Source: Clostridia bacterium (GTDB lineage: Bacteria; Bacillota_A; Clostridia; Christensenellales; Aristaeellaceae). From it: a stretch of DNA of 18,654 nt. The translations under genes and the position numbers were made by a program. The stretch lies in assembly GCA_017432405.1 (NCBI GenBank), contig JAFRJF010000082.1:1-18654 (forward strand), in the 5' to 3' direction. This document shows positions 312 through 16,686 of the stretch, in pieces (positions within the stretch are counted from its first letter, which is position 1; every line of letters starts with the position of its first letter). The notes under the pieces are model-generated. The model did not search any database. It saw nothing but the letters and a program-made list of their open reading frames with translations, and had not been told where the DNA came from.

Positions 312-1712
312 ATGTGGAATCTGGGTAACAAGGGACAGAGCGTCGCGCTGATCGAAGGTGAAAGAAAGGTCACATACGCCCAGCTGGAAGAGCTGTGTCG
401 CAGGATCGTCGCGCCGCTGGGCGAGCGGTCCCTTGTGTTTTGCCTGTGCACCAATACGGTGGCGTCTGTCGCGGGCTACCTCGCGTTGACCGATAACGGC
501 CATGTGCCGCTGCTGCTGGACGCCAAGATCAGCCGCGACCTGCTCAACCAGCTGATCGAAGCCTATCGTCCCGGCTGGATCTGGGCGCCTGCGGACGCGG
601 GAGACAAGCTGCCCGAGCGTGAAACCGTCCTCGAGATGGAGGGCTACGCGCTTTCCTCCATGGCGGTGGACGCGCCCTATGCCATGAACGACGCGCTCTG
701 CCTGCTGATTTCGACCTCGGGCTCCACGGGCAGCCCCAAGCTGGTGCGCCAGAGCTATCAGAACCTGCGCTCAAATACCGAGGCCATCATAGAGTACCTG
801 GGCATCACGCCCTCGGAGCGGGCGATCACGTCCCTGCCGATGAATTACGTCTACGGCCTGTCCGTGCTCAACACCCACATCTATGCCGGCGCGATACTGG
901 TGCTGACGAACCTCAATCCCTACGCAAAGAAGTTCTGGGACCTGGTGAACAGCGAGGGCGTCACCTCCTTCGCGGGCGTGCCCTTCACCTACGAGACCAT
1001 CGACAAGCTGCGCATACTCAAGCGCGAGCTGCCGACGCTGAAGACGATGACCCAGGCCGGCGGAAAGCTGTCGCCGGAGCTGCACAAAAAGCTGGCCACC
1101 TGGGCCATGGCGTGCGGCAAGCGATTCGTGGTCATGTACGGCGCCTCCGAGGCGACCGCCCGCATGGGCTATCTGCCGCCTGAGCGCTCCCTGGAGAAGC
1201 AGGGGAGCATGGGCATTCCGATTCCGGGCGGCCGGTTCGAGTTGATCGACGCGAACGGCGAGGTCATCGACGCGCCGGAGCAGGTGGGCGAGATGGTGTA
1301 CTATGGTCCAAATGTCACCCTGGGCTATGCGCTGACTGGGGCCGACCTGAGCAAGCCGGATGAGAACAAGGGCCGCCTGGTGACGGGCGACATGGCCAAG
1401 CGGGACGCGGACGGCTTCTATTACATCGTTGGCAGGAAAAAGCGCTTTTTGAAGATACTGGGCAAGCGCATCAACCTGGACGACGTGGAGCGCCTGCTGA
1501 AGCAACACTTCGATACCGGCGATATCGCCTGCGGCGGCAAGGACGACGAGCTGTGGATCTACGTGACGGACCCGGCCCTTGAGGACGAAGCGGTGGAATA
1601 CGTGTTCAATGAGATGGACATCAACCGCAAGCTGCAAAAGGCGGACACCATTCCCGCCATACCGAGGAATACTTCCCAGAAGGTGCTTTACAGCCAGCTT
1701 CCGCCGCTGTAA
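312..1712 (+). CDS. AMP-forming acyl/amino-acid ligase, carrier-protein loading type
   Basis: This 466-residue protein belongs to the adenylate-forming (ANL) superfamily, which activates a carboxylic acid with ATP and transfers it to a thiol. Visible core motifs are the phosphate loop STSGSTGSPK at residues 134-143, YGASEATARM from Y276, the TGD motif at 358-360 and GRKKRFLKILGKRINLDD near 375-393. The C-terminal catalytic lysine is probably K457 in SQKVLY, where most relatives have GK. The ATG at 312 has GGGGAGG 8 bases upstream. The gene opens an operon that also encodes a carrier protein, an MBOAT acyltransferase and an SGNH protein, so by position it is the counterpart of DltA. The A5 motif YG.SEAT is of the general acyl/aryl ligase type and not what I expect of D-alanine-specific DltA. 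The substrate is therefore unknown and could be a short acyl, hydroxy or amino acid. Confidence 0.85.
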   Translation: MWNLGNKGQSVALIEGERKVTYAQLEELCRRIVAPLGERSLVFCLCTNTVASVAGYLALTDNGHVPLLLDAKISRDLLNQLIEAYRPGWIWAPADAGDKLPERETVLEMEGYALSSMAVDAPYAMNDALCLLISTSGSTGSPKLVRQSYQNLRSNTEAIIEYLGITPSERAITSLPMNYVYGLSVLNTHIYAGAILVLTNLNPYAKKFWDLVNSEGVTSFAGVPFTYETIDKLRILKRELPTLKTMTQAGGKLSPELHKKLATWAMACGKRFVVMYGASEATARMGYLPPERSLEKQGSMGIPIPGGRFELIDANGEVIDAPEQVGEMVYYGPNVTLGYALTGADLSKPDENKGRLVTGDMAKRDADGFYYIVGRKKRFLKILGKRINLDDVERLLKQHFDTGDIACGGKDDELWIYVTDPALEDEAVEYVFNEMDINRKLQKADTIPAIPRNTSQKVLYSQLPPL

Positions 1713-1735
1713 TCGGAAAGGACAGGGGTACAGAT

Positions 1736-2386
1736 ATGGCATTGATCAAATCCGTCGCCGATGACGCCGTCGTCAAGAATACGACCCTGGGCAAGCGCTC
1801 CACCATCGACCACGATTGCGTGGTGCTGAATTCCACCATCGGCAGCTATGTGGACATCGAGAAGCGCAACCTGATCCGAAGCGCCGTCATCGGGGACATG
1901 ACCTATACCGGCGCGGACGTGGGCATCATGTGGGCCGAGGTCGGGAAATACTGCTGCATCGCCCGGAAGGTGGAAATCGGCGGCAACGAGCACAACTATC
2001 GCGCGGCGTCGATGATGCCGTCCTATCGCCTGCTCAACAAGCTGGGGGGCAAGCTGTCCATGCACCAGGACGAGGAAATCGTCCGCGTCGGCAACGACGT
2101 CTGGATCGGCGTGGGCGCGCTGATTCCCCGCAAGAGCGGACTGGTGATCGGCGACGGCGCCGTCATCGGCAGCGGCGCTGTTGTGACAAAGAGCGTTCCG
2201 CCCTACGCTATCGTCGCGGGCGTGCCCGCCAGGGTCATACGCTACCGCTTTGAAGCGCCGGTCATCGAAAAGCTGCTGCGCCTGAAGTGGTGGGACTGGG
2301 AGCGGGAAAAGATCCTTGAAAACTGGCCGCTGCTCTCCTCGGACCTGACCGAGGAAGCTGTTGACGCGCTGCTTGCGCTGGAATAA
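1736..2386 (+). CDS. Hexapeptide-repeat acetyltransferase, CatB/XAT-like
   Basis: This 216-residue protein has the left-handed beta-helix repeat pattern of acyl-CoA-dependent O/N-acetyltransferases. Isoleucine/valine-spaced triplets run through residues 10-70, and the active-site half includes VGNDVWIGVGALI and GDGAVIGSGAVVTKSVPPYAIVAGVPAR. The C-terminal helix with KWWDWE is typical of the xenobiotic acetyltransferase (CatB/Vat) subgroup, which also contains many cell-envelope sugar acetyltransferases. The ATG at 1736 lies 23 bases after the ligase stop, with AGGGG at 1724-1728 as ribosome site. No signal peptide or membrane segment is seen, so it should act in the cytoplasm. In this operon it most likely acetylates a sugar precursor of the surface polymer. 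An antibiotic-resistance role is less likely. The acceptor cannot be read from sequence. Confidence 0.8.
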   Translation: MALIKSVADDAVVKNTTLGKRSTIDHDCVVLNSTIGSYVDIEKRNLIRSAVIGDMTYTGADVGIMWAEVGKYCCIARKVEIGGNEHNYRAASMMPSYRLLNKLGGKLSMHQDEEIVRVGNDVWIGVGALIPRKSGLVIGDGAVIGSGAVVTKSVPPYAIVAGVPARVIRYRFEAPVIEKLLRLKWWDWEREKILENWPLLSSDLTEEAVDALLALE

Positions 2387-2507
2387 AAGCGCCGGCGACG
2401 CCTGAACAAGAGATATTTATGGATAATGCCTTCATCATACGACGGGCCGACGCGCACCGTGCCCGGTGAAGCCGAGGCCAAACCAAGACAGGACGGGAGG
2501 AGAAAAC

Positions 2508-2735
2508 ATGGACGAGCTGCTGAGCATTCTTAAGGGTATTTGCCCCAAGGTGGATTTTGTCAAAGAGAAGAAGCTGATCGACGACGGCATACTGGATTCC
2601 TTCGATATCATCTCCATCGTCAATGAGCTGAACGAGCATTACGACATCGAAATTGATGTGGACGACCTCGAACCGGATAACTTTAACACCGTTGAAGCGA
2701 TGCTGGAGCTGATCGAAAAGCTGAGCAACGAATAA
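2508..2735 (+). CDS. Acyl carrier protein (DltC-like)
   Basis: This is a 75-residue acidic four-helix carrier protein with the phosphopantetheine site DSFDI, serine S31. After modification by a 4'-phosphopantetheinyl transferase it should carry the acyl group activated by the ligase at 312-1712. I chose ATG 2508 because GGGAGGAG ends 5 bases upstream and the product then has the normal carrier length. An in-frame upstream ATG at 2466 would add 14 unlikely residues. The stop is 20 bases before the MBOAT gene. The order ligase, acetyltransferase, carrier, MBOAT, SGNH resembles dltA-C-B-D with an insertion. The gap of 121 bases before it is the widest in the operon and holds no clear gene. Confidence 0.88.
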   Translation: MDELLSILKGICPKVDFVKEKKLIDDGILDSFDIISIVNELNEHYDIEIDVDDLEPDNFNTVEAMLELIEKLSNE

Positions 2736-2755
2736 CGGAGCGAGGGGCATTATCC

Positions 2756-4336
2756 ATGAATATCGTATCTCTGTTTTACCTGGCGTTTGTGGCTGCCGTG
2801 GCGCTGGTTTACTTCATCGCGCCACGCCGCTTTCGCTGGGTAATACTGCTGGGGGCCAGCCTGGTCATCTACCTGTACTGTGGCAGGCGGATGATCGTCT
2901 GGCTGCTTCTGACCTCGCTGAGCATATACGTCGGCGGCCTGCTGATCGATCGTCGCCAGAGGCGCTATCTCGAACAGCTCGACGCCAACCCCGGGCTCGA
3001 TAAAGACGGCAGGCGGGCGCTGAAAAAAAAGTGCGAGCGGGACAAGCGATTCTGGGCCGCTCTGGTTGCTGCGGTCAACATCGCGATCTGGGTGGCGTTC
3101 AAGTTTACGGACCTGTTCATCGAAGCATTCAACCGCAGCTTTTCTGCCAACCTGAGCCTCGTTCACCTGGCGCTGCCTCTGGGCATATCCTTTTACACGC
3201 TTCAGGCGATCAGCTACGTGGTCGACCTCACCAGAGGCAAGTGCGAGGTTCAAAGGAACTATTTCAAGCTGCTGCTGTGGCTGTGCTTTTTTCCACAGAT
3301 CCTGCAGGGGCCGATCTGCCGCTACAGGGAAACGGCCCACCAGCTCTATGAGCCCCATGATTTCGACTATCGCAGGGTAAAGTTCGGCATGCAGCGCATG
3401 CTCTGGGGCTTCTTCAAGAAACTCGTGATCGCTGACAGGGTGGTCAGCGTCTCCGACACGATCTTTGGCAATTCAGCAAAATACCAGGGCGTGATCTTCA
3501 TCATCGGCGCGCTGGCCTATACCATACAGATCTATGCCGACTTCTCCGGCGGCATGGACATCATCAGCGGCTCTGCCGAGATGCTGGGCATCACCATGCC
3601 CCTCAACTTTGAGCGGCCCTATTTTTCCAGGAGCATCGCGGAGTACTGGCGCAGGTGGCACATCACGCTGGGAACCTGGTTCAGGGATTATGTATTCTAT
3701 CCGCTGTCCATCTCCAGGGCATCCCAGGCGCTGGGCAGGCACTGTCGCAAGCTCTTCGGCCCGGCCCTGGGCAAGATGCTTCCCACCTATCTGGCCATGG
3801 TGCTGGTCTGGCTGCTCAACGGCATATGGCACGGGGCAGGGGCGCAGTTCGTCGCCTTCGGCATGTACCAGGGCATATTGATCGTGCTGGGCATGCAGCT
3901 GGAGCCCGTTTTCCAGTGGATCATCGACAAATTCAGCATTCGCACGGACTGCTTCAGCTGGCGGCTGTGGCAGCGCGTTCGCACGCTGGCGCTGATCATG
4001 GCCGGGCGCATCATATTCAAGGCCAACGGATTGCCTGAAGCGGGGCGCATCTTCAGGAGCATATTCACCGCCCGCAACTGGTGGGCCTTGACCGACGGCA
4101 CCCTCTTCAAGCTGGGCCTGGACGCATGGGAGCTGTTTGTGCTGTTCGTGGCGGTGCTCGTACTGCTGACGGTCAGCATATTGCAGGAGAAGGGCGTGCA
4201 CATCCGCGAGACGATCGAAAGGCAGAACCTGCTGTTCAGGTGGGGCCTCGTCATCTGTGCGGTGGTGGCCGTGGTGCTTTTCGGCGTCTATGGCATAAAC
4301 CTCGACCTGACTGGATTCGTCTATGCCGGCTTCTGA
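2756..4336 (+). CDS. MBOAT family membrane O-acyltransferase (DltB/AlgI-like)
   Basis: This is a 526-residue polytopic membrane protein with the full MBOAT signature. Visible blocks include PLGISFYTLQAISYVVD, FFPQILQGPICRYRE, DFSGGMDIISG, and SIAEYWRRWHITLGTWF with H302. The presumed catalytic histidine is H359 in GIWHGAG. Proteins of this type (DltB, AlgI, PatA) take an acyl group from a cytoplasmic donor and pass it across the membrane to a surface polymer. Here the donor should be the neighbouring carrier protein and the partner the SGNH protein immediately downstream. The ATG at 2756 has GAGGGG 8 bases upstream and sits 20 bases after the carrier stop. Length and motif order are normal for the family. 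Whether the acceptor is a teichoic acid or another polysaccharide is open. Confidence 0.92.
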   Translation: MNIVSLFYLAFVAAVALVYFIAPRRFRWVILLGASLVIYLYCGRRMIVWLLLTSLSIYVGGLLIDRRQRRYLEQLDANPGLDKDGRRALKKKCERDKRFWAALVAAVNIAIWVAFKFTDLFIEAFNRSFSANLSLVHLALPLGISFYTLQAISYVVDLTRGKCEVQRNYFKLLLWLCFFPQILQGPICRYRETAHQLYEPHDFDYRRVKFGMQRMLWGFFKKLVIADRVVSVSDTIFGNSAKYQGVIFIIGALAYTIQIYADFSGGMDIISGSAEMLGITMPLNFERPYFSRSIAEYWRRWHITLGTWFRDYVFYPLSISRASQALGRHCRKLFGPALGKMLPTYLAMVLVWLLNGIWHGAGAQFVAFGMYQGILIVLGMQLEPVFQWIIDKFSIRTDCFSWRLWQRVRTLALIMAGRIIFKANGLPEAGRIFRSIFTARNWWALTDGTLFKLGLDAWELFVLFVAVLVLLTVSILQEKGVHIRETIERQNLLFRWGLVICAVVAVVLFGVYGINLDLTGFVYAGF

Positions 4337-4372
4337 TTATATGCCGGTCTGCTGGAGGATGGTTCATCAATC

Positions 4373-6007
4373 ATGAGTATAAAGATCAAGAGGGCGGCGG
4401 GCGCCATCGCGTTCTTTTTGCTGCTCTTTGCCACCCTGGCATGGGTCCAGGACGTGGTCACGCCGGACTTCGACTGGCCGGAGCACAACCGGCGCTCCCT
4501 CAAGGGCATCAGAAGCGCCTTCAACGAGCCCAAGGGCAGCATTGACGCCGTCTTTTTCGGCACGAGCCAGACCTTCTGCTCGATTTCCCCGATGACGATG
4601 TACGACATCGCCGGCGTTCGCGCCTACAACATGGCGAGCACCAACCAGCGCATCCCGGTGGCATACCACCTGCTCAGGGCCATACTGCACAACCAGTCGC
4701 CCAAGCTGGTGGTGGTCGACGCCAGCGGCTTCTTCTATACAGAAAAGGAGATGCAGAGCGCCGCGAAGTACGAGGAAATGGTCAACAGCCTCCCCTGGAG
4801 CAGGATCAAGGAAAAATGGGAGCTGATGACCGAGATCGCGAAGCTGCAGGACAGGGGAAACGATTGGAAATACATCCTGAGCTCGGTCATCCCCCTGCTC
4901 AGGTACCACTCGAACTACCTGCTGACGGAGCAGGATCATGTAGAGATGTACATGAAGGATCTCTACCAGCGCAAGGGCTACGTGGCGACCTTCGACTTTG
5001 TGCCCGTGGAAAAGGAGAACTATAAGATCGTCAAGGCCATGCTGGATCCGAACGACGACTATGCCAGCGACGACGACCGCAAGGAGAAGCTCCAGGACGC
5101 GATCGAGGCCAACGAGCCCTACCTGATGAAGATGCAGCAGCTGTGCCGGGAACACGGCGCGGAGTTGGTCTTCATGAAGGTGCCCATTAGCCCGACCACC
5201 GAGCACAGGGGCTACTGGAGCTACAACAAGCACGTGATGACCGAGACTTTGGCCGGGAAGATGGGCGTGAAATTCCTCGATATGTGCTATGAGGACATCG
5301 GCCTGGACTGGTTCAAGGATTCCAATGACAGTGGTGAGCATGTCAACTATCGCGGCACGAAGAAAATCACCGCCAGGGTACTGAAGTGGCTCCAGGAGGA
5401 TTTCGGCCTGGCATCAGAACCCAATGCGCAGTGGGACCGGCAGTGGTCGTATCAGAACGAGGTGTTCGCCGAGGAAATGGAATACCTGGACCTGGAGCTG
5501 GAATACGACCTTGTGAAGTATCTCGAGCGCGTCCGGGAGGGCGACTATGTGCTCTTCACCATCGTGTCAAACGGCCTGGGCAAGTATTGGAGCGACGAGG
5601 CCCAGCAGGCGTTCGAGAAGACCACGGGCACAAAGCTCGACCTGAGAAAGAAGGGGAACGCGGCCTATGTGAGCGTTTCCAGCCAGGGCAGGATCATCGA
5701 AGAGCGCAATGACAGGCGGTCCTGTTCCCTCCAGATCGACCTGGAGAACGGGCTGAATTGCAAATTGAACAGCAGGAAGACCGGGTCCAGGTCTGCCGGT
5801 TCGATCGTCATCGACGCAAAGCGCTACGATGCCCCGGGCCAGGGCGTCCATTTCGTGGTCTATGACAACAAGCTGGGCTGCGTCGTGGACAGCGTCTGCT
5901 TCAACACCGCATCCAGGGCGCTGACGGCGCAACAGTATACGGAATACAAGGAAGCCATGCGCATGAAGATCATCGAATACGTTCACGGCCAGATGAAGGG
6001 CATCTGA
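4373..6007 (+). CDS. Membrane-anchored SGNH-type protein (DltD/AlgJ-like) with ILEI/FAM3-like C-terminal domain
   Basis: This 544-residue protein starts with a signal anchor (hydrophobic residues about 8-25), so the body should lie outside the membrane. The SGNH-like part has a candidate nucleophile S65 in FFGTSQTFCS and a candidate D319/H323 pair in NDSGEHVNYRG. That is the arrangement of DltD and AlgJ/AlgX partners that finish acyl transfer to extracellular polymers. Residues about 375-515 form a second module resembling the ILEI/FAM3 domain: GDYVLFTIVSNG, then GQGVHFVVYDNKLGCVVDS and CFNT. In the eukaryotic proteins I recall, the two halves occur in the opposite order. The GGAGG at 4354-4358 is 14 bases from the ATG, rather far, but no better start is seen. 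It is probably co-translated with the MBOAT gene, which is 36 bases upstream. Confidence 0.8.
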   Translation: MSIKIKRAAGAIAFFLLLFATLAWVQDVVTPDFDWPEHNRRSLKGIRSAFNEPKGSIDAVFFGTSQTFCSISPMTMYDIAGVRAYNMASTNQRIPVAYHLLRAILHNQSPKLVVVDASGFFYTEKEMQSAAKYEEMVNSLPWSRIKEKWELMTEIAKLQDRGNDWKYILSSVIPLLRYHSNYLLTEQDHVEMYMKDLYQRKGYVATFDFVPVEKENYKIVKAMLDPNDDYASDDDRKEKLQDAIEANEPYLMKMQQLCREHGAELVFMKVPISPTTEHRGYWSYNKHVMTETLAGKMGVKFLDMCYEDIGLDWFKDSNDSGEHVNYRGTKKITARVLKWLQEDFGLASEPNAQWDRQWSYQNEVFAEEMEYLDLELEYDLVKYLERVREGDYVLFTIVSNGLGKYWSDEAQQAFEKTTGTKLDLRKKGNAAYVSVSSQGRIIEERNDRRSCSLQIDLENGLNCKLNSRKTGSRSAGSIVIDAKRYDAPGQGVHFVVYDNKLGCVVDSVCFNTASRALTAQQYTEYKEAMRMKIIEYVHGQMKGI

Positions 6008-6062
6008 CGCAATCGGCGCTGAATGTGTTCTGAGCACTGTTTTTCTACGGAGGTTTATCGCT

Positions 6063-8915
6063 TTGCCGAAGAGAAGGGACCTTGGAAACGCCATACAGGG
6101 CCTGGCCTGCCTTGGGATACTGTGGTTCATCCTGTTTGGCGACCCCACCCGGCTGCCGACGCAGTGGCTGGCCGCGATTCCGGGGGGATTTTTGACCTCC
6201 GGCACGGCGTTCCTGATCGGCATGGCGCTGCTCTACTTCATCGAAGGCGCGCATGCGGCGCAATCCGGGGATGAAGCGCCGGCTTCGCCCCTCAGGCGTG
6301 CGCTGGGATATTATATCTCCTATTGGAAGGTCTGCGCGCCACTGGTGCTGATCGGCGGCCTGTTTTTCTGCGAGATTTCGGAATCCCCGATCTACTGCCC
6401 GATGTTCAGGAACCTGGGATTCCTGAACGTCAGCCGGGCGATACTCGCCCTGTCCAACAACATCCACGAGGGCACCTGGCTGATTTCGTCCATTGCCATA
6501 TGCGCCTTTTGCGCGGCGCTGTTCCCGATGGCGAAGCGGAAGCGGGGGACGGGCCTGGCGGTGGCGGTGCTTCTCGGCGGGATCGCCCTCCAGGCCGTGC
6601 TGTACCTGAAGGTGCTGCCCTTCATGTACAACGCGCGGGTATACCGGATCGCTGCGGTGGCCGGGCCGTCGGCCCATGCGCTGGGCTTTCTGCTGTTCCA
6701 GGGCGATGGCGCCTTGAAGCGGCGCGTTGCTCATTTGGCTGAAGGACTGCCGGACAACCGGGCGCTGACTGCCCTGTCCGGGCCGTTCAAGTTCATCGGC
6801 CGGAAATGGACGACCTTCTGGATGGCGCAGTTCTACGTGGCGATGTATTATTACCACGTAGCCGCGTCGGTCTACGCCGACACAGGCCGTGCCCTCTTAA
6901 GCTACCTGATCTTCCTTGTGATGACATGCCTGCTGCTCTACGGGCTGGATTGGGGCTACCGCCGCCTTCAGACCGCGTTTCGCCGCAGCTGGCGCGTCGC
7001 GCCTGCGATACTTTCCACATTGGCCGTGCCCTTCCTGCTGCGGCTGGCGCTGGAGACGTCCATGGACGCCTACGCCCAATTTGCCTACCTGGCCGCCCGG
7101 CAGTGGCCGATCCGGGCGATGGTCAACGTGCTGGCGATATTCAGCTTGATCCTGATACTCCGGGCGCTGATCGGGCACTGGTTGCCGGCGGGCCTGACGG
7201 TGACGGTGCTGATGACGCTGCTGGCTATCGCCAACCACTACACGATGAAGTACCACGGGGCGCTTCTGACGGTGGAGGACATCCACAACGTCGGCACCGT
7301 CACGGGCGTGATCGGCAGCTATGACCTGTCCGTGGACGCCGTCGCGGGGCGCATACTGCTGCTGGAGGCGGCTGCCGCGGCCTGCTGCGTGCTGGCCTGG
7401 CTGTGCGCAAGGCCCCTGCGCGGCCTGTTTACCCGCAGGCAGCGCTGGGTCAACCGGCTGGCCTGCCTGCTGGCGGCGGCGGTCAGCCTGTATTTCAGCT
7501 ATTTCTCTGCGGTCCCGATCATCGAGCGGCAGGACAACATCTGGAGCTGGGGCAGCCTCTACGCGAAGATCGGATACCTGTCCGGTACGGTGGAGTCGAC
7601 GCTGGCCAATATGGAGTTCTCGGTGTACAGGCCCGACGGCTATTCGGACGGGCGCATCGCCGAGCTCGCCGAAGCGGCGCGCAGACAGCAGGCGGACGCC
7701 GCAGCGGAAGCCAGCGACGCCTACCCGGACATCGTGATGATCCTCAACGAGACCTGGTACGACCTGGATCGGTACATCGATACCGGCGCGGACGTCGATT
7801 ATCTGGCGAACTACCGGGCGCTGGACAACGCCATCAAGGGCTATGCGGAGGTTCCGCTCACCGGCGGCGGCACCAACGGCACGGAGTATGAGATGCTCAC
7901 GAGCAACTCCATGACACTGATCAACGCCTATGCCCCCTTCAACCGCCTGAACTTCGCCGACACGGTCACCCTGCCGCGCTACCTGAAGCAGCTCGGCTAT
8001 GCTACCGTCGCCGCCCATCCCCACGAATCCCAGAACTATCACCGGGGCATGAGCTGGTCGCAGATGGGCATCGACCAAACCCACTTCATACAGGATTTTA
8101 CGGAGCTGGAGTATTACGCCGATCGCAACAAGGATCACGAGATCACGGATACGACGGCCCTGAAGAACCTGATCCGCTTCATGGACGAGCTGCCGGGGGA
8201 CGGCCCCCGCTTCGCCTTCCTGGCCACCATGCAGAACCACGGCGACTGGACCAACAACCGCCCCGAACAGGCGCTGGTCCACAGCCATCCCGCCACGGCA
8301 GACGAGGCACTGGTCGGCAGGATCAACGAATACCTGTCCTGCCTGACGTATACCGACGCGATGATCGGTTTCATGCAGCAGTATTACACCGAGCTGTATG
8401 AACGGACGGGCAGGCGGGTGGTCGTGTGCATGGTGGGGGACCATTCGCCCAGCTTCCTGCCCGAGCTGGAAGGCCTGTGCAAATGGCAGGATCGGGCGCT
8501 GGCCGAGCGCATGGGCAAGCAGACGCCCTTCTACATCTGGGCGAACTATCCCCTGGATCTGGAGGACGAGGCCCTTCCCCGGACGGAAAGCATGGATCTG
8601 TGCTGTCTGATGCCCGCCGTGCTGCGCGCCGCCGGGGTGCCGCTGTCCTACTATTACAGGTACATCCTGGATATGAACCGGGATGTGGCGGTCTATACCA
8701 ATGTCGGTTCGGAAACGGCCGAGGAGACCAGGCGGATCGCCTTCTATGACCGTGAGGGCCTTCTGCATTACGTGGACGAGGACGCGCCCCTGGCGCGCGC
8801 GGTCAGCGATTACTTTTGCATGGAATACAACCTCAACGGCGAGGACACGCGACAGGAACCGGCGCTGTTCGAACCGACAGGGAGTGGGAAGGTCGCGCCT
8901 GCGGCCGACCCCTGA
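6063..8915 (+). CDS. LtaS-type phosphoglycerol transferase with extra N-terminal membrane domain
   Basis: The C-terminal half of this 950-residue protein is an LTA synthase/sulfatase-fold enzyme. It has E563 in ILNETWYD, the presumed nucleophile T604 in GGGTNGTEYE, H726 in QNHGDW and D793/H794 in VGDHSPSF, matching metal and catalytic positions of LtaS. Such enzymes move glycerol phosphate from phosphatidylglycerol to a polymer outside the membrane. Residues about 320-530 are the usual membrane part, including an NHYTMKYHGALLTVEDI-like stretch. The first roughly 310 residues are an additional multi-spanning domain that looks like a degenerate acyltransferase-3 domain (IHEGTWLISSIAI...LFP) without an obvious catalytic histidine. 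LtaS proteins are usually about 600-650 residues. The TTG at 6063 is chosen because GGAGG at 6049-6053 lies 9 bases upstream and no ATG is suitable. Confidence 0.88.
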   Translation: MPKRRDLGNAIQGLACLGILWFILFGDPTRLPTQWLAAIPGGFLTSGTAFLIGMALLYFIEGAHAAQSGDEAPASPLRRALGYYISYWKVCAPLVLIGGLFFCEISESPIYCPMFRNLGFLNVSRAILALSNNIHEGTWLISSIAICAFCAALFPMAKRKRGTGLAVAVLLGGIALQAVLYLKVLPFMYNARVYRIAAVAGPSAHALGFLLFQGDGALKRRVAHLAEGLPDNRALTALSGPFKFIGRKWTTFWMAQFYVAMYYYHVAASVYADTGRALLSYLIFLVMTCLLLYGLDWGYRRLQTAFRRSWRVAPAILSTLAVPFLLRLALETSMDAYAQFAYLAARQWPIRAMVNVLAIFSLILILRALIGHWLPAGLTVTVLMTLLAIANHYTMKYHGALLTVEDIHNVGTVTGVIGSYDLSVDAVAGRILLLEAAAAACCVLAWLCARPLRGLFTRRQRWVNRLACLLAAAVSLYFSYFSAVPIIERQDNIWSWGSLYAKIGYLSGTVESTLANMEFSVYRPDGYSDGRIAELAEAARRQQADAAAEASDAYPDIVMILNETWYDLDRYIDTGADVDYLANYRALDNAIKGYAEVPLTGGGTNGTEYEMLTSNSMTLINAYAPFNRLNFADTVTLPRYLKQLGYATVAAHPHESQNYHRGMSWSQMGIDQTHFIQDFTELEYYADRNKDHEITDTTALKNLIRFMDELPGDGPRFAFLATMQNHGDWTNNRPEQALVHSHPATADEALVGRINEYLSCLTYTDAMIGFMQQYYTELYERTGRRVVVCMVGDHSPSFLPELEGLCKWQDRALAERMGKQTPFYIWANYPLDLEDEALPRTESMDLCCLMPAVLRAAGVPLSYYYRYILDMNRDVAVYTNVGSETAEETRRIAFYDREGLLHYVDEDAPLARAVSDYFCMEYNLNGEDTRQEPALFEPTGSGKVAPAADP

Positions 8916-8949
8916 GGTTATGATCGCTTGAAAGTGGAGGTTCTTCGGA

Positions 8950-10641
8950 TTGAATCATAGATGGAGGGGCGTGGCCCTTTGCCTGGTTGGCGCGGCGGTG
9001 CTCGTGGCCCTGGTGGTTTTCGGACCGGGCCGGGGCGCGCGGGACGTTGGCGAGGGCGTCGCGCCGGTGAGGCTTTCCAGGGAATCCGGCTTCTACGACG
9101 ATGCGTTTTACCTGGAGATGGCCTGCGACAGGGGCGAGATCCGCTATACGCTGGATTCCACGGTGCCCAACGAGCATTCCCTGCTGTACACCGGGCCCAT
9201 ACTGGTCGAGGACGCCAGCTCTAACCCGAACGTCTACAGCATGATCGAGGATGTCTGCATCGAATTGAGGTCGGACATACTCAAGGTTGCCGGTCGGGAG
9301 CCCAAGTACGGCTTTACGACGCCGAAGCAGCCCGTGGACAAGGCCATGGTCGTTCGCGCCGTCTGCATCGACGCCTTCGGCAACCGCAGCGACATCGTCA
9401 ATGGCGTCTATTTCGTCGGCTTCAACAAAAAGGAAGCCTATGACGGCATGAACATCATCTCCATCACCACCGACCCCGACAACCTCTTCGACTTCGACAG
9501 CGGTATCTATGTCCTGGGCAAGACCTTCGACGATACCGTCGTGGAGGGCGCGGGCGTGCCGCCGGCGATTGCGAACTTCGGCAACTGGGCGGGCAATTAC
9601 AAGAACAAGGGCAGCCAGTGGGAGCGGGAGGCGCACGTCTGTTTCTTCGATACCACCCACAACCTGACGCTGTCCGGCAATTACGGCATACGCATACAGG
9701 GCGGCGCAAGCCGGTATATGCTGCCCAAGAGCCTGAATATCTACGCCCGAAAGCGCTATGGCAGCGAAACGATACCGGCGCTGCCCCTGTTCGGCGAGGA
9801 TTGGCAGCTGCACAGCCTGAACCTGAACGCGGGCGGTCAGGGCGTGGAGACGAAGATCCACGACCTGCTGGTCAACACCCTCGTGGCGGATTGTGACGTG
9901 CTGACCCGGGAGTATGAGCCCTATGAGCTGTTCCTGGACGGTGAATATTGGGGCGTCTACTGGCTGACCCCCCGGTTCAAGGAGGACTACTTCGCCGGCA
10001 AATATGGCTTCGACGATGTGATCGTGACCAAGGTCGATCACATCGAGGTTGGCGACGATACTGATTTCAAAGCCTACAAGGATATGCTGTACATGATCGC
10101 CGACAACGATATGAGCGACGAGGCGAACTATGTGCGCGTGTGCGAGCTCGTGGACATGGAGAGCTGGATCGATTATTACGCGATAGAGCTGTACATCTGC
10201 AACACGGACTGGCCGGGCAACAATCGCTCCCTGTGGCGCGTACGCAATGCGTCGGATCAGCCGGACGCGGACGGAAGGTGGCGGTGGGTGCTGTTTGACG
10301 TCAACCTGTCGATGGACACCGCGCGCGCGGACAATAATTTCATCGATCGCACCACCAAGCGGGATCCGATCCTGGCCAGCCTGTATGATAACCGGACCTT
10401 CAGGCGGGCACTCGTGAGGCGGATGGTCAGGCTGGCAAAGGAGAATTTCAACCCCAAGCGGGTGAATGCCTTTGTGGACGAATACGCGGCGCGGATGCGC
10501 CGTGCCATGGGCAACGAATACATCCGGTTCATGAATGACAGGACGGAAGAGGACTTCATTAAGGCCTGCGGGCAGATCAAGGAGTTTTTCCGGCTGAGGT
10601 ATGATTATGTCATGGAGAAATACGGTGGGAAGAAGAAATAA
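8950..10641 (+). CDS. CotH kinase family protein, copy 1
   Basis: This 563-residue protein starts with a signal anchor (about residues 7-25), then a chitobiase/Fn3-like segment at about 40-88 (SGFYDDAFYLEM, IRYTLDSTVPN, LYTGPI). A CotH domain follows from about 155 to 540, with GIRIQGGASRYMLPKSLNIYARK, LFLDGEYWGVYWL, NTDWPGNNRSLWR (D420) and DGRWRWVLFDVN (D450, N452). CotH proteins are atypical protein kinases; the best known phosphorylates spore-coat proteins. An extracytoplasmic place is likely here because of the anchor. The TTG start at 8950 has GTGGAGG at 8934-8940, 9 bases upstream. Its paralogue at 12035 has exactly the same length and aligned motif positions, which supports this start. 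Where the paralogue has Asp at 452 this copy has Asn, so activity may differ. The substrate is unknown; the neighbouring polymer enzymes suggest an envelope role. Confidence 0.85.
   Translation: MNHRWRGVALCLVGAAVLVALVVFGPGRGARDVGEGVAPVRLSRESGFYDDAFYLEMACDRGEIRYTLDSTVPNEHSLLYTGPILVEDASSNPNVYSMIEDVCIELRSDILKVAGREPKYGFTTPKQPVDKAMVVRAVCIDAFGNRSDIVNGVYFVGFNKKEAYDGMNIISITTDPDNLFDFDSGIYVLGKTFDDTVVEGAGVPPAIANFGNWAGNYKNKGSQWEREAHVCFFDTTHNLTLSGNYGIRIQGGASRYMLPKSLNIYARKRYGSETIPALPLFGEDWQLHSLNLNAGGQGVETKIHDLLVNTLVADCDVLTREYEPYELFLDGEYWGVYWLTPRFKEDYFAGKYGFDDVIVTKVDHIEVGDDTDFKAYKDMLYMIADNDMSDEANYVRVCELVDMESWIDYYAIELYICNTDWPGNNRSLWRVRNASDQPDADGRWRWVLFDVNLSMDTARADNNFIDRTTKRDPILASLYDNRTFRRALVRRMVRLAKENFNPKRVNAFVDEYAARMRRAMGNEYIRFMNDRTEEDFIKACGQIKEFFRLRYDYVMEKYGGKKK
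10614..10617 (+). promoter_or_regulatory. Ribosome site deciding the VTC gene start
   Basis: GGAG at 10614-10617 lies 7 bases before the GTG at 10625, inside the end of the CotH gene. A competing GAGG at 10596-10599 would serve the ATG at 10607. The GTG gives a protein starting close to the conserved YRHELKY block and a short 17-base overlap with CotH. I prefer it, though the ATG cannot be excluded. Confidence 0.5.
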
Positions 10642-11359
10642 AACGGTACTTGAGGCAGACAGGTACCGGCACGAGCTAAAGTACATCTGCAGCGACCTGG
10701 AGCTGAGGATCGTCGAGCAGAAGCTCAGGGCGGTGATGAAGCCGGACCCCTATGCTGACGAAAACGGCGAATACCTGATACGCAGCGTCTATTTTGACGA
10801 CTACCAGAGAAGCCGCTTCTTTGAGAACGAGGATGGCGTAGACCCCCGTGAAAAGTTCCGAATCCGCGCTTACAACTGCTCCGACGCGCGCATCTGCCTG
10901 GAAAAAAAGATCAAGAACCGGGGCATGACGGGCAAGCGGAGCTGCCTGATCGACCGGGAGACCTGCGCGAGGATGCTGGCGGGCCAGTCCGTTTCGGATC
11001 GCCTCGGGCAACACCCGCTGTTGGACGAGTGGATCGTGCAGCGGGAAACCGCGGGGCTGCGCCCGGTGATGCTGGGAGAATACGTGCGCAAGCCCTACGT
11101 TTACCCGGCGGGGAACGTCAGAATCACCTTCGACAGGTATATCTCTGCCTCCTACCGGGTCCGGGACATCTTCGAGGCCAGGACATCCAGGATCGCGGTG
11201 CTGCCCACCGGCTATCACGTGCTGGAGGTCAAGTACGACGACTTTCTGCCGGACGTTATTTACCAGCTGATCGACAGCGGCCACATGCGCCAGACCACCT
11301 TTTCAAAATTCTATCTGGGCTGCAGGGCCATAGGGGGCAGAGTCAATGAGCTTCCGTGA
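10625..11359 (+). CDS. VTC domain protein, polyphosphate-polymerase-like
   Basis: The protein is 244 residues from the GTG start (250 or 252 from alternative ATGs at 10607 or 10601). It is a VTC-family tunnel-fold protein, related to the catalytic domain of yeast Vtc4 that makes polyphosphate from ATP. The basic and acidic residues that line that tunnel are visible: RHELKY with K19, FRIRAY with R79 and R81, LEKKIK at 92-97, VRITFDRY, LEVKYDD with E201 and K203, and FSKF with K228. There is no membrane segment, unlike the fungal complex, so it should be cytoplasmic or recruited by a membrane partner. Bacterial VTC proteins often sit beside CotH and DUF4956 genes, and both are present here. The gene overlaps CotH copy 1, pointing to translational coupling. 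The polyphosphate product is an inference from the family. Confidence 0.85.
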   Translation: MGRRNKTVLEADRYRHELKYICSDLELRIVEQKLRAVMKPDPYADENGEYLIRSVYFDDYQRSRFFENEDGVDPREKFRIRAYNCSDARICLEKKIKNRGMTGKRSCLIDRETCARMLAGQSVSDRLGQHPLLDEWIVQRETAGLRPVMLGEYVRKPYVYPAGNVRITFDRYISASYRVRDIFEARTSRIAVLPTGYHVLEVKYDDFLPDVIYQLIDSGHMRQTTFSKFYLGCRAIGGRVNELP

Positions 11360-11386
11360 GATCTCCGGGAAGGGAAGGTCGGCTGA

Positions 11387-12001
11387 ATGAGGGGCAATGG
11401 GGCAAAGCGGGTTTTCCTCGTGGCGCTGGCGGCGTGCTTTGCGCTGCTTTGTGTCCTGTTTGCCCGCCGGTCCGTCGATGGCTGGATGGCCATCGAACGG
11501 GAATACCCCAGGAGCAACATGGCGCTCTCCCTGAGCCGGGGGAAGGGCGGCGTCATCCGCATCGACGGGGCGGGCAAGCTATACGCCAACGACCTGAAGG
11601 CGATGCTGAGGGCCGCCGACATCCATTCAAGCGAGGTCAGGGACGTCATCGTGGGAGAGGACATCACGGAGATCGGCTACAAGACCTTCTCTCGCATGAG
11701 ATACCTGCAGACGCTGAAGCTGGGCAGCGACGTGGCCCGGGTCGCCCCGGGGGCGCTGAATTATTGCGCGGCCCTGGAGTGGCTGTACCTGCCCTCGGGG
11801 GCCGGGGAGATCGGGGCGGGCTTCCTCTACGGGTGCGATCAGTGCCGCGTGGTGACCGATGCCCGGCCCGAAGACCTGCCGGCTCTGGAAAACGTGAAGC
11901 CGGAGAGCATCGTCGCCGGGGTGGATTCCCTTGATGGCCTGCGCTCGGCGATGGGCGGCGACGCCGACCTGCCGGACGTGCTGGCGCGCTGGTGGCGTTG
12001 A
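11387..12001 (+). CDS. Small membrane-anchored BspA-like leucine-rich repeat protein, copy 1
   Basis: This 204-residue protein has an N-terminal hydrophobic anchor (about residues 9-26) and a short extracytoplasmic body. The body carries two to three BspA/LRR_5-type repeats (VRDVIVGEDITEIGYKTF, LQTLKLGSDVARVAPGAL, LEWLYLPSGAGEIGAGFLYGC). It ends in a conserved-looking tail, DLPDVLARWWR. A clear paralogue of identical length lies at 14400-15014, each copy being the third gene of a CotH-led cassette. BspA-type repeats usually bind proteins or matrix, so it may scaffold the CotH protein or the polymer. No enzymatic motif is seen. GGGAAGG at 11372-11378 is 8 bases before the ATG. I do not recognise a named family for the full protein. 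Confidence 0.72.
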   Translation: MRGNGAKRVFLVALAACFALLCVLFARRSVDGWMAIEREYPRSNMALSLSRGKGGVIRIDGAGKLYANDLKAMLRAADIHSSEVRDVIVGEDITEIGYKTFSRMRYLQTLKLGSDVARVAPGALNYCAALEWLYLPSGAGEIGAGFLYGCDQCRVVTDARPEDLPALENVKPESIVAGVDSLDGLRSAMGGDADLPDVLARWWR

Positions 12002-12024
12002 CGGTTGGATCGATTGAAAAAACG

Positions 12025-12029
12025 GGAGG
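12025..12029 (+). promoter_or_regulatory. Ribosome site deciding the CotH copy 2 start
   Basis: GGAGG at 12025-12029 lies 5 bases before ATG 12035. Upstream in-frame TTG codons at 12005 and 12014 have no such site. Starting at 12035 gives 563 residues, the same as copy 1, and puts the hydrophobic anchor right at the N-terminus. Confidence 0.7.
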
Positions 12030-12034
12030 CGCCG

Positions 12035-13726
12035 ATGTTGAGGCTTCGATGGAAGACCCTGCTGAGCTGCTGCCTGGGCGTCGCGGCCCTGGCCGGCATG
12101 CTGGCATTCGCCCTTAACCAGAGCGACGATGAGAAGGGCATGCGCTCGGAGGTCGCCTTCTCCCAGCCCTCCGGCTTTTATGATGACGCCTTCATGCTCG
12201 AGATGACGGGCGATGGGAACCCGATCTACTATACCCTGGATTGCACCGACCCCGACGCCGACTCGACGCTGTATACCGGTCCGATCCTCATAGAGGATGC
12301 CAGCCCGAAGGAAAACGTGTACAGTGCCGTCACCGATACCTCGGCCTACTACGACAAGGCGCTGCTGAAGCAAAACGGGGTCAGGCAGACCCTAAAATAC
12401 CGGATACCCAAGGCGCCTGTGGACAAGGCGACGGTGGTGCGGGCTGTAAGCATCGACGCCTCCGGCAACGCAAGCCCGGTGTCCACAGCGGTCTATTTCG
12501 TGGGCTACGGCGAAAAGACCGGCTATGCCGGCGTGAATGTCATGACCATCGTCACAGACCCCGCCAACCTGTTTGACGATGAGAAGGGCATCTATGTGCT
12601 GGGCGCGAAGTTCAGGGAATCCCTGAAGGACGGCATCGTGCAGTATACCGGCGAGCCCGGCGTATTCTCCTGGCCGGCCAATTACAGGCAGAGGGGCAGG
12701 GAATGGGAGCGCGAGGCGGTCGTGCATTGCTTTGACGCCAATGGCGAACCCGTCTTTTCCGGCCCCTGCGGCATACGGGTGCAGGGCCGGGCGACCCGCT
12801 CCCACATGCCTAAGAATCTGAACATCTACGCCCGCAAGGAATACGGCTGCCCGGCCTTCGATACCGGCGCTCTGTTCGACAGGGAATACCGTCTGAACCG
12901 CTTGAACCTGTACAACGGCGCCAACGACCTGATGCTCAGGGATTACATGATCCATGCGATGAGCGATGACGCGGACGTGGTCGACCAGGAATTTTGCCCG
13001 TGCGCGCTGTTCCTGGACGGCGAATACTGGGGCGTCTACTGGCTCTGTACGCGATTCAAGCCCGATTATCTGAATCAGGTATACGGCGTTAAGAAGGACA
13101 ACATCGTATCGATCAAGATGGGGAAGGTCGAGATCGGGCAGGATGAGGACCTGAAGCTCTACGAGGACATGGTTTCGTTTATCGCGGACAACGATATGCG
13201 ATCCCCGGAGGCCTATGCGCGGGCCGGTGAGCTCATCGACCTGCAGGCGTGCATCGACTACTATGCCGTCGAGGTCTACGTCGCCAGCACCGACTGGCCC
13301 ACCAACAACTTTGCCCTCTGGCGCAGCCGGCATGAGGCGAGCAACGCGTATTCCGACGGGCGGTGGCGATGGATGCTGTTTGACCTGGACCACACCACCC
13401 GCGTTGCGAACGCCGAAGAGGATACGCTGTGGCGCGCCTGCAACCTGGACGCGCTGCTTGCCAGCCTGATGCAGAACGAGGATTTTTCAAGGCGCTTCTC
13501 CGAAAAGCTGGTGCAGCTGGCCAGGGAAAACTTCGCGCCGGAGCGCACGGACGCCTTCATAGACGCCTATGAGTCCGACATGGCGGAGGCCATCGAGAAG
13601 AAGTACCAGCGCTTTTACGGAAAGTACGACATGGACGCGTTGTTTTATGCAGGCTGCGAGCAGGTCAGGGAATTCTTTCGCCTGCGTCAGACATATATCA
13701 TCAATACTTATGGAGGTATAGATTAA
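12035..13726 (+). CDS. CotH kinase family protein, copy 2
   Basis: This 563-residue paralogue of the 8950-10641 protein has the same layout. A short basic start and hydrophobic anchor come first, then a chitobiase/Fn3-like segment (SGFYDDAFMLEM, IYYTLDCTDPD, LYTGPILIEDAS). The CotH domain shows GIRVQGRATRSHMPKNLNIYARK, LFLDGEYWGVYWL, STDWPTNNFALWR with D420, and DGRWRWMLFDLD with D450 and D452. Both acidic positions of the last motif are present, so it looks like the more canonical kinase of the pair. By eye the two copies are roughly 40-50 percent identical over most of their length, with no gaps around the catalytic motifs. Its stop codon overlaps the start of the DUF4956 gene by one base (TAATG). 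It probably acts outside the membrane on an envelope or polymer-linked substrate, which is inferred from anchor and context only. Confidence 0.85.
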   Translation: MLRLRWKTLLSCCLGVAALAGMLAFALNQSDDEKGMRSEVAFSQPSGFYDDAFMLEMTGDGNPIYYTLDCTDPDADSTLYTGPILIEDASPKENVYSAVTDTSAYYDKALLKQNGVRQTLKYRIPKAPVDKATVVRAVSIDASGNASPVSTAVYFVGYGEKTGYAGVNVMTIVTDPANLFDDEKGIYVLGAKFRESLKDGIVQYTGEPGVFSWPANYRQRGREWEREAVVHCFDANGEPVFSGPCGIRVQGRATRSHMPKNLNIYARKEYGCPAFDTGALFDREYRLNRLNLYNGANDLMLRDYMIHAMSDDADVVDQEFCPCALFLDGEYWGVYWLCTRFKPDYLNQVYGVKKDNIVSIKMGKVEIGQDEDLKLYEDMVSFIADNDMRSPEAYARAGELIDLQACIDYYAVEVYVASTDWPTNNFALWRSRHEASNAYSDGRWRWMLFDLDHTTRVANAEEDTLWRACNLDALLASLMQNEDFSRRFSEKLVQLARENFAPERTDAFIDAYESDMAEAIEKKYQRFYGKYDMDALFYAGCEQVREFFRLRQTYIINTYGGID

Positions 13727-14400
13727 TGAGCTTCAAGGACATCTTCAAGAAGGGCTTTCTGACATCCTACGCCAATACGGAAATCACCTTCCGCTATGCG
13801 GTGCTGGCGATGCTGGTGTGTCTTGCGATCGCGCTGGTGATCTGCGCGGTCTACTACTTCAAGTCGAGGAAGTACTTCTTTTCCAAGGAATTCGCGGTGT
13901 CCCTGGTGGCGCTGTCGGTGATCACCGTGTCCGTGATCCTGACGATCCAGGCCAGCGTGGTGGTGTCACTGGGCATGGTGGGCGCGCTGTCCATCGTGCG
14001 CTTCAGGACGGCCATTAAAAACCCGTTGGATCTGGTGTTCCTGTTCTGGTCTATCGCCACGGGCATCATCTGCGGCGCGGGGCTGTACTTCATCGCCCTG
14101 CCGCTGACGCTGATCCTCGGCATCGCGATACTGCTGTCGGACGAGGTGCCCGGGGTGGCCCGCAACCGCATACTGGTGCTGGACGGCAGCTATCCCTATG
14201 ACGAGAAGCAGACCATGGACATCGTGAAGAAGTACGCCAAGTGGTACAACGTGCGCACCGAGAGCGTGCACAACGACGCGGTCAACCTGATCGTCGAGGT
14301 GCGCAAGGTGAAGGACAGCGCGGGCCTGATCCGGGAGCTGCGGCAGACGGGCGCGTTCAGCGACGTTTCGCTGCTGGTGCAGGAGGGGACGATCGACTGA
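13726..14400 (+). CDS. DUF4956 family membrane protein
   Basis: This 224-residue protein has about four membrane spans in residues 20-145. It carries the DUF4956 hallmark SLGMVGALSIVRFRTAIKNPLD followed by LVFLFWSIATGI and a glycine-rich span. Residues about 150-224 form a soluble alpha/beta tail (NRILVLDGSYPYDEKQTMD, VNLIVEVRKVKD, FSDVSLLVQEG) that is probably cytoplasmic. The function of DUF4956 is not established. The family is repeatedly found next to VTC and CotH genes, so it may be the membrane partner or channel for the VTC product, by analogy with the membrane part of the yeast VTC complex. That is inference. TGGAGG at 13711-13716 precedes the ATG. One-base overlaps on both sides (TAATG with CotH copy 2, TGATG with the next gene) indicate tight coupling. 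Confidence 0.87.
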   Translation: MSFKDIFKKGFLTSYANTEITFRYAVLAMLVCLAIALVICAVYYFKSRKYFFSKEFAVSLVALSVITVSVILTIQASVVVSLGMVGALSIVRFRTAIKNPLDLVFLFWSIATGIICGAGLYFIALPLTLILGIAILLSDEVPGVARNRILVLDGSYPYDEKQTMDIVKKYAKWYNVRTESVHNDAVNLIVEVRKVKDSAGLIRELRQTGAFSDVSLLVQEGTID

Positions 14401-15014
14401 TGATGAACGAAGGCGGAAAGCGCGTGTTTCTCGCCGCCCTGGCGCTGATCTTCGGCTTGCTGCTGTACATGTGCGTCGACGGACGGGATATCATACGCTG
14501 GACTGCCGATGTGGCCTATTCCAGGGGAAATGAGGAACTGTATATCCAGCGCCTGGGGGACGGGGCGATCTACATCGGCGGGGAGGGCAAGCTGTACGGG
14601 CCGGACATGCGCGCCCTCGTGGAAGGCGAGAGCATGACGGTCGAGTCGGTGACGGACGTCATCATCGGCAATGGCATCACGGAGATCGGCTATGATGTCA
14701 TCTGCGGATACCCGATCCTGCGCACCGTCCGCCTCGGCGACGGCGTGGCCGTCCTCGGCAACGGGTCGATCTGCGATTGCCCGGAGCTGCAGTTCGTCTT
14801 CATACCTGCCGGCGTCCAGAGGATCAGCCGGGATTTCCTGTACGACTGCAATCGCTGCATCGTCGTTACGGACGGGCCCGCCGACGGCCTGCCAAAGCTG
14901 CGAAACACGCGCAAGGCCAATATCATCGGAAATGTGGATTCCCTTGCGGCCATGCAGGGCGCCTGGACGAACGGCACGGAGCTGCCGGAGATCCTGGAGC
15001 GGTGGTGGCCGTGA
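14400..15014 (+). CDS. Small membrane-anchored BspA-like leucine-rich repeat protein, copy 2
   Basis: This 204-residue paralogue of the protein at 11387-12001 has the same design. An N-terminal anchor (about residues 8-23) is followed by a segment with LYIQRLGDGAIYIGGEGKLY. BspA/LRR_5 repeats come next (VTDVIIGNGITEIGYDVI, LRTVRLGDGVAVLGNGSI, LQFVFIPAGVQRISRDFLYDC), and the tail is ELPEILERWWP. The start is ATG 14400, which overlaps the DUF4956 stop by one base and follows AGGAGGGG at 14381-14388. A second ATG at 14403 is the alternative. The equal length of the two copies favours 14400. It probably works with CotH copy 2 and DUF4956 at the membrane. The molecular role is unknown. Confidence 0.72.
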   Translation: MMNEGGKRVFLAALALIFGLLLYMCVDGRDIIRWTADVAYSRGNEELYIQRLGDGAIYIGGEGKLYGPDMRALVEGESMTVESVTDVIIGNGITEIGYDVICGYPILRTVRLGDGVAVLGNGSICDCPELQFVFIPAGVQRISRDFLYDCNRCIVVTDGPADGLPKLRNTRKANIIGNVDSLAAMQGAWTNGTELPEILERWWP

Positions 15015-15042
15015 TAAAAACCAACGAGAGAGGACTGCCATC

Positions 15043-15666
15043 ATGCCGAATGTTGAAAACCACAAGGAGCTCGTGCCCTTTGAGCACTATACCGGCCTGT
15101 TTGAACAGCTGGACCCCGTCGAGGCGGCGGAGCGCTGCGGGGTGAGATACGATCCCGACGCCAGGGTGTTCACGCTGCGCCTTCTGTACGTGGATTACCG
15201 GATCACCTGGCCGAAGTTCTCCATAAGCAGCGCCGCGGCGGACGGCTTCGCGCTTTACAACCTGCCTGCGCAGATGCTGATGATCCGCTACCTGCTGGAA
15301 GGCCGGCGGTCGGTGGGGACGGGCGAATTTCTGCCATACCGGGAGATGCCCTGGGGGGAGGTCTACCTGAAGCCCTTCACCGGGCGCTGCCTGAACCGGG
15401 CGGCCTTCACCTTTGGCACGCGCCTGGACGCCTTCAGGGCCGCCGCGGCCCAGCTGCCGGCAATTCCCCTGGACAAGGGGGACGCGTCCTACCAGCTGGA
15501 GATCATGCCCGGATACGACGTGCGGCTGATCGTCTGGGAGGGGGACGATGAATTCCCGCCCAACAGCCAGATACTGTTTTCGGATAATTTTCCCAAGGCC
15601 TTCTCCGCAGAGGACCGGACGGTGGTGGGGGATATACTCATTTCCGACCTGAAGCGGCGGATGTGA
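15043..15666 (+). CDS. DUF3786 domain-containing protein
   Basis: This 207-residue soluble protein resembles the DUF3786 family of anaerobic bacteria and archaea. The best recognised part is the C-terminal block with LIVWEGDDEFPPNSQILFSDNF. Earlier blocks are LYNLPAQMLMIRYLL, GEFLPYREMPWGEVYLKPF and a GDASYQLEIMPGYDV stretch. Its biochemical function is not known to me; some relatives sit near corrinoid or one-carbon genes. ATG 15043 has AGAGGA at 15029-15034, 8 bases upstream, and lies 28 bases after the repeat-protein stop. It is the last gene before the terminator at 15668, so it appears to be transcribed with the polymer operon. No obvious link to that function can be seen. The family call is from memory of the conserved block. 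Confidence 0.7.
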   Translation: MPNVENHKELVPFEHYTGLFEQLDPVEAAERCGVRYDPDARVFTLRLLYVDYRITWPKFSISSAAADGFALYNLPAQMLMIRYLLEGRRSVGTGEFLPYREMPWGEVYLKPFTGRCLNRAAFTFGTRLDAFRAAAAQLPAIPLDKGDASYQLEIMPGYDVRLIVWEGDDEFPPNSQILFSDNFPKAFSAEDRTVVGDILISDLKRRM

Positions 15667-16677: not shown

Positions 16678-16686
16678 GAAATACAA

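Follow-up and report, generated by a model that had tools for sequence, protein, structure and literature searches.

A conserved, lineage-restricted run of thirteen clostridial genes joins an acylation relay, a GacH-like transferase candidate and a CotH/VTC/DUF4956 cassette

The first 18,654 bases of contig JAFRJF010000082.1 from a Clostridia bacterium, which are the window analysed here (60% G+C), contain a run of thirteen genes that we name g1 to g13 in order along the + strand. Open reading frame (ORF) calls, Pfam and NCBIfam scans and gap measurement showed that these genes, all on the + strand, fill positions 312-15666, as a first-pass annotation of this DNA had claimed. In order they encode an AMP-forming ligase, a hexapeptide acyltransferase, a carrier, an MBOAT protein, an SGNH protein, a sulfatase-fold transferase, a CotH protein, a VTC protein, a leucine-rich repeat/transmembrane (LRR/TM) protein, a second CotH protein, a DUF4956 protein, a second LRR/TM protein and a DUF3786 protein (Table 1). 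These are recognisable known modules, and their combination is one that we did not meet in the open-access literature. The run is real, conserved and, among uncultured gut bacteria, lineage-restricted. Directly observed are the thirteen genes with their families, the folds of two of the proteins, a gene order kept across genomes, and purifying selection; from these we lean slightly towards a putative role in lineage-specific, post-export tailoring of a surface polymer made by other genes. The earlier view of a dedicated surface-polymer system is partly supported.

Eleven of the twelve junctions between neighbouring genes measure between -41 and +55 bp, the exception being the 121 bp between g2 and g3. 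The 34-bp gap between the two halves of the run (8916-8949) contains GGAGG, and a scan for promoter- or terminator-like sites listed none in it; the claim of one uninterrupted same-strand run held. Some starts in the first-pass annotation needed correction. The carrier begins at 2508, and the last gene begins at 15043 rather than 14671, a separate LRR/TM gene (g12) occupying 14400-15014. We infer from the spacing and the conserved order that the run is an operon.

An alignment of 22 VTC sequences led to at least 564 relatives, from which we took the best 80 loci in named genomes. Relatives were annotated with profiles built iteratively from the window proteins and with mechanical ORF calls, and some neighbours were checked against Pfam. 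Among these 80 loci, the acylation half stood beside VTC in L001 and L002 only; these come from the isolates RUG11052 and RUG14340, both titled as uncultured Clostridiales bacteria (RUG presumably meaning rumen). The genus-level group of L001's genome comprises 28 genomes; g6 matched in 12 of them (E up to 1e-20) and was full-length in five, at 73-87% identity, with one internal stop within the aligned stretch in L002's genome. All five (L001, L002, L295, L296, L297) keep the order ligase, hexapeptide enzyme, carrier, MBOAT, SGNH, transferase, CotH, VTC. The L001 and L297 loci continue to the LysR gene, and the other three end at contig edges. With at most two best candidates scored per genome, full-length g6 turned up in one genome of the order sample (396 genomes, E up to 1e-60) and one of the phylum sample (398 genomes, E up to 1e-80), in both cases L001's genome (G001); the C-terminal part of g6 alone matched in four order genomes. 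A search of 5.8 billion proteins, with 7,996 candidates scored, gave at least 25 homologues.

Ratios of nonsynonymous to synonymous substitution against the genus-level group were 0.03-0.61 across the thirteen genes, leaving aside the g10 rows versus L002, L295 and L296, where the wrong paralogue had been compared. By this measure every gene of the run is under purifying selection. Conservation is highest in DUF4956 and the hexapeptide enzyme (94-98% to L001 and L297); the fastest-changing genes are g5 and g10 (56% to L297) and g9 (48%). A 74% VTC relative (P0047) and a 33% g5 relative (P0171) both show 58,208 bases as their longest contig, perhaps pointing to a more diverged form of the operon.

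Table 1. Genes of the run and the sequence that follows it
Feature	Position	Strand	Evidence
g1, AMP-forming acyl ligase, 466 amino acids	312..1712	+	Pfam AMP-binding 9e-42
g2, cytoplasmic hexapeptide acyltransferase, Vat/CatB/TIGR03308-like	1736..2386	+	TIGR03308 148.9 bits, below cut-off 201.65
g3, acyl carrier protein, DltC-like	2508..2735	+	PP-binding 6e-6; DltC NF003464 40 bits, below cut-off 68
g4, DltB-type MBOAT with WHG and fused C-terminal FVYAGF acyl-shuttle motif	2756..4336	+	MBOAT 4e-13
g5, membrane-anchored SGNH acyltransferase, putative DltD/PatB-like role	4373..6007	+	SGNH fold matches of predicted structure
g6, candidate GacH-like glycerol-phosphate transferase, 950 amino acids	6063..8915	+	Sulfatase 4e-20; GacH by profile and fold
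g7, exported CotH kinase-family protein	8950..10641	+	CotH 1e-34; N-terminal TM
g8, VTC domain protein (polyphosphate polymerase family), soluble	10601..11359	+	VTC 8e-37
g9, single-TM protein, weak LRR_5	11387..12001	+	LRR_5 1e-5, just below cut-off; TM 8-26
g10, second exported CotH kinase-family protein	12005..13726	+	CotH 3e-33
g11, DUF4956 four-TM protein	13726..14400	+	DUF4956 5e-16; four TM segments
g12, second single-TM LRR_5-like protein	14400..15014	+	LRR_5 5e-4, below cut-off; TM 9-27
g13, DUF3786 protein	15043..15666	+	DUF3786 1e-51 (scanned from 14671)
End of run: inverted repeat, then sigma-70-like promoter of LysR gene	15669..15727	+	promoter scan; repeat by eye

The g6 protein has a long membrane part, with 11 TM segments predicted by hydropathy; near residue 516 this gives way to an extracytoplasmic domain of sulfatase fold. 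Its catalytic-type motifs are retained in all six loci. The first-pass annotation saw LtaS-like polymerisation in this gene, and the corresponding explanation of the run is that g6 builds a polyglycerol-phosphate backbone, which then receives D-alanine through the Dlt-like genes and phosphate through CotH/VTC. We consider this decidedly unlikely. GacH is ahead of LtaS for g6 by 10 Z units in fold comparison, in which the matches listed span mainly residues 528-933, and by about 21 orders of magnitude in E by profile. LtaS has five TM segments, against the 11 predicted ahead of the g6 domain. By these comparisons g6 is closest to GacH, an enzyme that attaches glycerol-phosphate to an already complete polysaccharide, and not to the LtaS polymerase. 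Pfam and NCBIfam scans recognised no backbone synthase or exporter among the thirteen genes, so the run probably tailors a polymer made elsewhere rather than building one as had been proposed. In the available text of PMC11754754 and PMC8807736, SccH takes glycerol-phosphate off phosphatidylglycerol and adds it to a sugar, and the side chains that GacH decorates are N-acetylglucosamine. The likeness to these streptococcal enzymes is distant (19% identity with GacH in the fold alignment), and no rhamnan synthesis gene was recognised in the window. The idea of an AT3 acyltransferase fused to g6, suggested by an AT3-like look of its first 300 residues, was set aside after an hhalign comparison with 16 AT3 sequences (local P 0.25).

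Among the acylation genes, g1 had as its best PDB rows o-succinylbenzoate-, malonyl- and oxalate-CoA ligases, with DltA only at row 43. The A4 motif of g1 and of three of three relatives lacks the Asp typical of amino-acid adenylating domains, which was present in the six amino-acid-type domains compared. This Asp binds the amino group of the substrate amino acid. Relatives of g1 score about 62-71 bits against the DltA model TIGR01734 (cut-off 560). None of eight genomes, five of which carry the operon, contained a DltA above this cut-off (controls, 2 of 14 above it); because the genomes are drafts, the missing DltA is not proof. Thus g1 is not DltA by score, D-alanine is disfavoured as the acyl group on sequence grounds, and the acylation half is not established as D-alanylation. 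The same scores and the A4 motif also speak against the D-alanylation part of the LtaS-based explanation.

The remaining proteins of this half fit a relay. No TM segment is predicted in g2. The phosphopantetheine-Ser motif LDSFDI of g3 is kept in all six loci, as are both the WHG (catalytic His) and the FVYAGF of g4. The g4 protein scores 144 bits against the DltB model TIGR04091, below the cut-off of 375, and matches DltB in PDB at 7e-24. Only g4 ends in the shuttle motif, and we found no separate DltX-like ORF among + strand ORFs of at least 20 amino acids up to 15800. Carrier and ligase genes are adjacent in six of six loci; the carrier may thus be the donor in place of acyl-CoA. A PDB sequence search with g5 found no relative, and its predicted structure (AlphaFold2, mean predicted confidence, pLDDT, 86) matches SGNH folds. 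GTSQ is conserved in g5 in six of six loci and D316, D319 and H323 are invariant; its C-terminal part is beta-rich with a weak ILEI likeness (2e-4, below cut-off).

Judged from its motifs, the acylation system is a hybrid, apparently carrier-fed like Dlt and with the shuttle motif fused to the MBOAT like PatA. Of the Dlt-like acylation first claimed for it, the carrier, MBOAT and SGNH genes are confirmed and D-alanylation by a DltA-type ligase is disfavoured. Like Dlt (DltABCDX), the run has a ligase, carrier, MBOAT and SGNH protein together, but its ligase differs as described, it has an extra hexapeptide enzyme, and a motif within the MBOAT takes the place of a separate DltX-like ORF. Like PatA/PatB, as presented in the available text of PMC12148441 (2025), it pairs an SGNH protein with an MBOAT whose C-terminus carries FXYXXF, but carrier and ligase are encoded alongside. 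That text states that MBOAT/SGNH pathways other than Dlt have no carrier; in contrast, the run exposes an apparently carrier-fed kind of MBOAT with a built-in acyl shuttle. A carrier is nearby in 12 of the 24 MBOATs that we examined, six of the 12 being the operon studied here. Such MBOATs are not peculiar to this operon, because in L115, L119, L120, L127, L130 and L131 a carrier gene also adjoins an MBOAT with a C-terminal FXYXXF-type motif.

In the CotH/VTC/DUF4956 half, the CotH alignment has D402, D408, D420 and D450 in 16 of 16 members and K260 in 15 of 16, and both g7 and g10 retain these Lys and Asp positions. Kinase function of g7 and g10 is an unproven, family-based prediction. A PDB sequence search found no relative of g7 and two weak rows for g10, one at its Fn3-like part. 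The g8 protein, in which no TM segment is predicted, matches yeast Vtc4 by profile (3e-7); a single-sequence PDB search returned two chance rows only and no Vtc4. Elsewhere, VTC matches in G067:C242 and G107:C24 lie within open frames of 746 and 808 amino acids, perhaps fusions. There is one DUF4956 gene in the window, one in L001 and two in L297; the two (L297:2771-3445 and L297:5766-6455) are 98% identical and one lacks a counterpart in the window and L001. The DUF3786 gene also adjoins the run in L001 and L297, and its membership in the pathway is uncertain.

The slightly favoured reading, tailoring of an exported polymer, could work as follows. The g1 ligase would activate a carboxylic acid, which is probably no alpha-amino acid, and load the carrier g3, and g2 may modify the carrier-bound acyl group. 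The g4 MBOAT would carry this group through the membrane to the Tyr in the FVYAGF at its own C-terminus, by an acyl-Tyr shuttle mechanism such as the available text of PMC12148441 describes, and g5 would take it from g4 and esterify the polymer. Like GacH and SccH, g6 would transfer glycerol-phosphate from phosphatidylglycerol to the polymer. The CotH proteins g7 and g10 could phosphorylate a surface protein or glycan, perhaps held by g9 and g12, and g8 with g11 could make or move polyphosphate at the membrane and serve or regulate the module. In favour of this reading are the order kept in five of five genomes with full-length g6, the purifying selection, the nearness of g6 to GacH, the shuttle motif on g4, the SGNH fold of g5 with its conserved D and H, the linkage of VTC to DUF4956 in 148 of 154 cassettes, the effect of CotH and DUF4956 deletions on Pel level and aggregation in Streptococcus intermedius (PMC12345266), and a second lineage that joins a GacH/LtaS-type gene to the cassette. 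The VTC/DUF4956/CotH step and a single acceptor shared by all groups are the least certain parts. We give very little credence to a bolder scheme in which VTC/DUF4956 make and export polyphosphate, polyphosphate replaces ATP as phosphate donor of the exported CotH proteins, and acyl, glycerol-phosphate and phosphate groups join one glycan with the help of a carrier-fed, self-shuttling MBOAT.

Several observations weigh against the tailoring reading. A glycan acceptor and the genes for its synthesis were not located. Amino-acid adenylating families are among the better g1 matches (AA-adenyl-dom 130 bits, below cut-off), and nonribosomal peptide synthetase entries fill rows 7-13 of its PDB match list. 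Among the best VIA rows of g5 are ordinary esterases and thioesterases, so that action by transfer rather than hydrolysis is a deduction. For Streptococcus intermedius, the available text of PMC12345266 reports no phenotype of a VTC deletion, which speaks against polyphosphate as an obligatory CotH donor, at least there. Finally, either module is found elsewhere without the other, even within the genus: in G003 and G004 the CotH/VTC/DUF4956 loci (L003, L004) and the acylation genes (L127, L128) lie in different places.

This last point favours another explanation, in which two unrelated adjacent units (acylation plus glycerol-phosphate, and CotH/VTC/DUF4956) are co-transcribed by accident of one ancestral insertion. 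For comparison, 156 non-redundant loci of at least 5 kb, the window excluded, were chosen by VTC similarity and not at random; they gave 154 distinct VTC cassettes. The same-strand VTC run contained DUF4956 in 148, CotH in 111, an MBOAT in four, a GacH/LtaS-type gene in four and a carrier in two, these two being L001 and L002. The halves are together in all five genomes with full-length g6, and a carrier is rare among VTC cassettes at large. In a family-level sample of 120 genomes, 116 had VTC relatives, 39 g6-like transferases and 25 g5-like proteins, and the six carrier-linked acylation modules named above had no VTC in the stretch examined. Because each half occurs alone, also within one genus-level group, we regard the cassette as general and the fusion as lineage-specific; on these neighbourhoods, CotH/VTC/DUF4956 is a separate, portable module. 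The restriction of the fusion to one group, with G001 the only genome with full-length g6 in the order and phylum samples, also fits accidental adjacency.

We nevertheless think two unrelated units unlikely. The junction between the halves is 24-34 bp in the window and the four relatives with clean start calls, and the order is kept in five of five genomes, although divergence at synonymous sites is about 0.7-1. In a second lineage (L220, L242, L243) a GacH/LtaS-type gene of 670-675 amino acids lies directly upstream of CotH-VTC-DUF4956; these transferases are 60-78% identical among themselves and 27-29% to that of the window. A Poisson estimate, which uses an assumed genome size and copy number, gave 2e-4 for three events against an expectation of 0.11. 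Counted as one inherited event the probability is 0.1, so this linkage is suggestive and not strong. DUF1385 precedes the GacH/LtaS-type gene in L243 and probably in L220. In the tally of cassette neighbours (25 of 124 families listed), PelG accounts for 3 of 114 sampled genes (229 eligible), and glycosyltransferases, MatE, GtrA and phosphoglucomutase occur in a minority. In L003, a NAGPA (phosphodiester glycosidase) gene at 16197-17333 lies downstream of the cassette and would fit phosphodiester-linked glycans.

A further explanation, rather doubtful in our judgement, gives VTC/DUF4956 a role in intracellular phosphate storage or signalling and has CotH control the polymer system as a protein kinase of the LRR/TM proteins, the polymer staying unphosphorylated. 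Both CotH proteins are expected outside the cell, where ATP is scarce, because of their N-terminal TM segments and Fn3/CHB_HEX-type surface domains, which argues against this. The weak match of DUF4956 (g11) to MgtC, below cut-off, is in its favour, as is the missing phenotype of the VTC deletion mentioned above. According to the available text of PMC12345266, deletion of the DUF4956-type gene in S. intermedius raises Pel and deletion of CotH lowers it, as regulators might, and both deletions reduce aggregation in artificial sputum. The part of PMC7112168 at hand proposes regulation by protein phosphorylation.

That CotH, VTC and DUF4956 genes co-occur had rightly been called known: PMC7112168, in its accessible part, describes CotH, a polyphosphate polymerase and DUF4956 as accessory to the Pel loci of Gram-positive bacteria. 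The accessible part of PMC11677781 lists VTC and CotH genes for C. perfringens NELoc-2. The run resembles the Pel loci of PMC7112168 and PMC12345266, so far as these texts are available, in having the same families next to a surface-polymer system. It differs in that Pfam recognised no Pel family among the thirteen genes, so the cassette is not contiguous with pelDEADAFG; its partners are the acylation relay and the GacH-like transferase, with two CotH and two LRR/TM genes. PMC12345266, again in its available text, did not meet this synteny of three genes anywhere but at the Pel locus, in contrast to the many Clostridia in which we found the cassette beside non-Pel genes. Searches of the open-access literature for the cassette families together and for carrier-linked MBOAT/SGNH systems gave no paper on a composite of all these modules, subscription papers and preprints being outside the search; the first-pass annotation knew of no such pathway either. 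The qim operon of S. pyogenes was set aside as a parallel, since its genes differ in the available text of PMC13059722. In the composite a little-understood cassette is tied to enzymes that have relatives of known reaction, and the substrate of the cassette could therefore be sought chemically.

No tRNA and no Rfam match were found in the window. The inverted repeat after 15666 was read by eye and was not flagged by the automated scan; the sigma-70-like promoter at 15699, ahead of the LysR gene, scores 12/12. Beyond the LysR gene lie a trigger-factor-like gene (FKBP and Trigger_C, 16735-17691) on the - strand, followed by a 16-pair hairpin at 16722-16686, and then a formate-tetrahydrofolate ligase gene.

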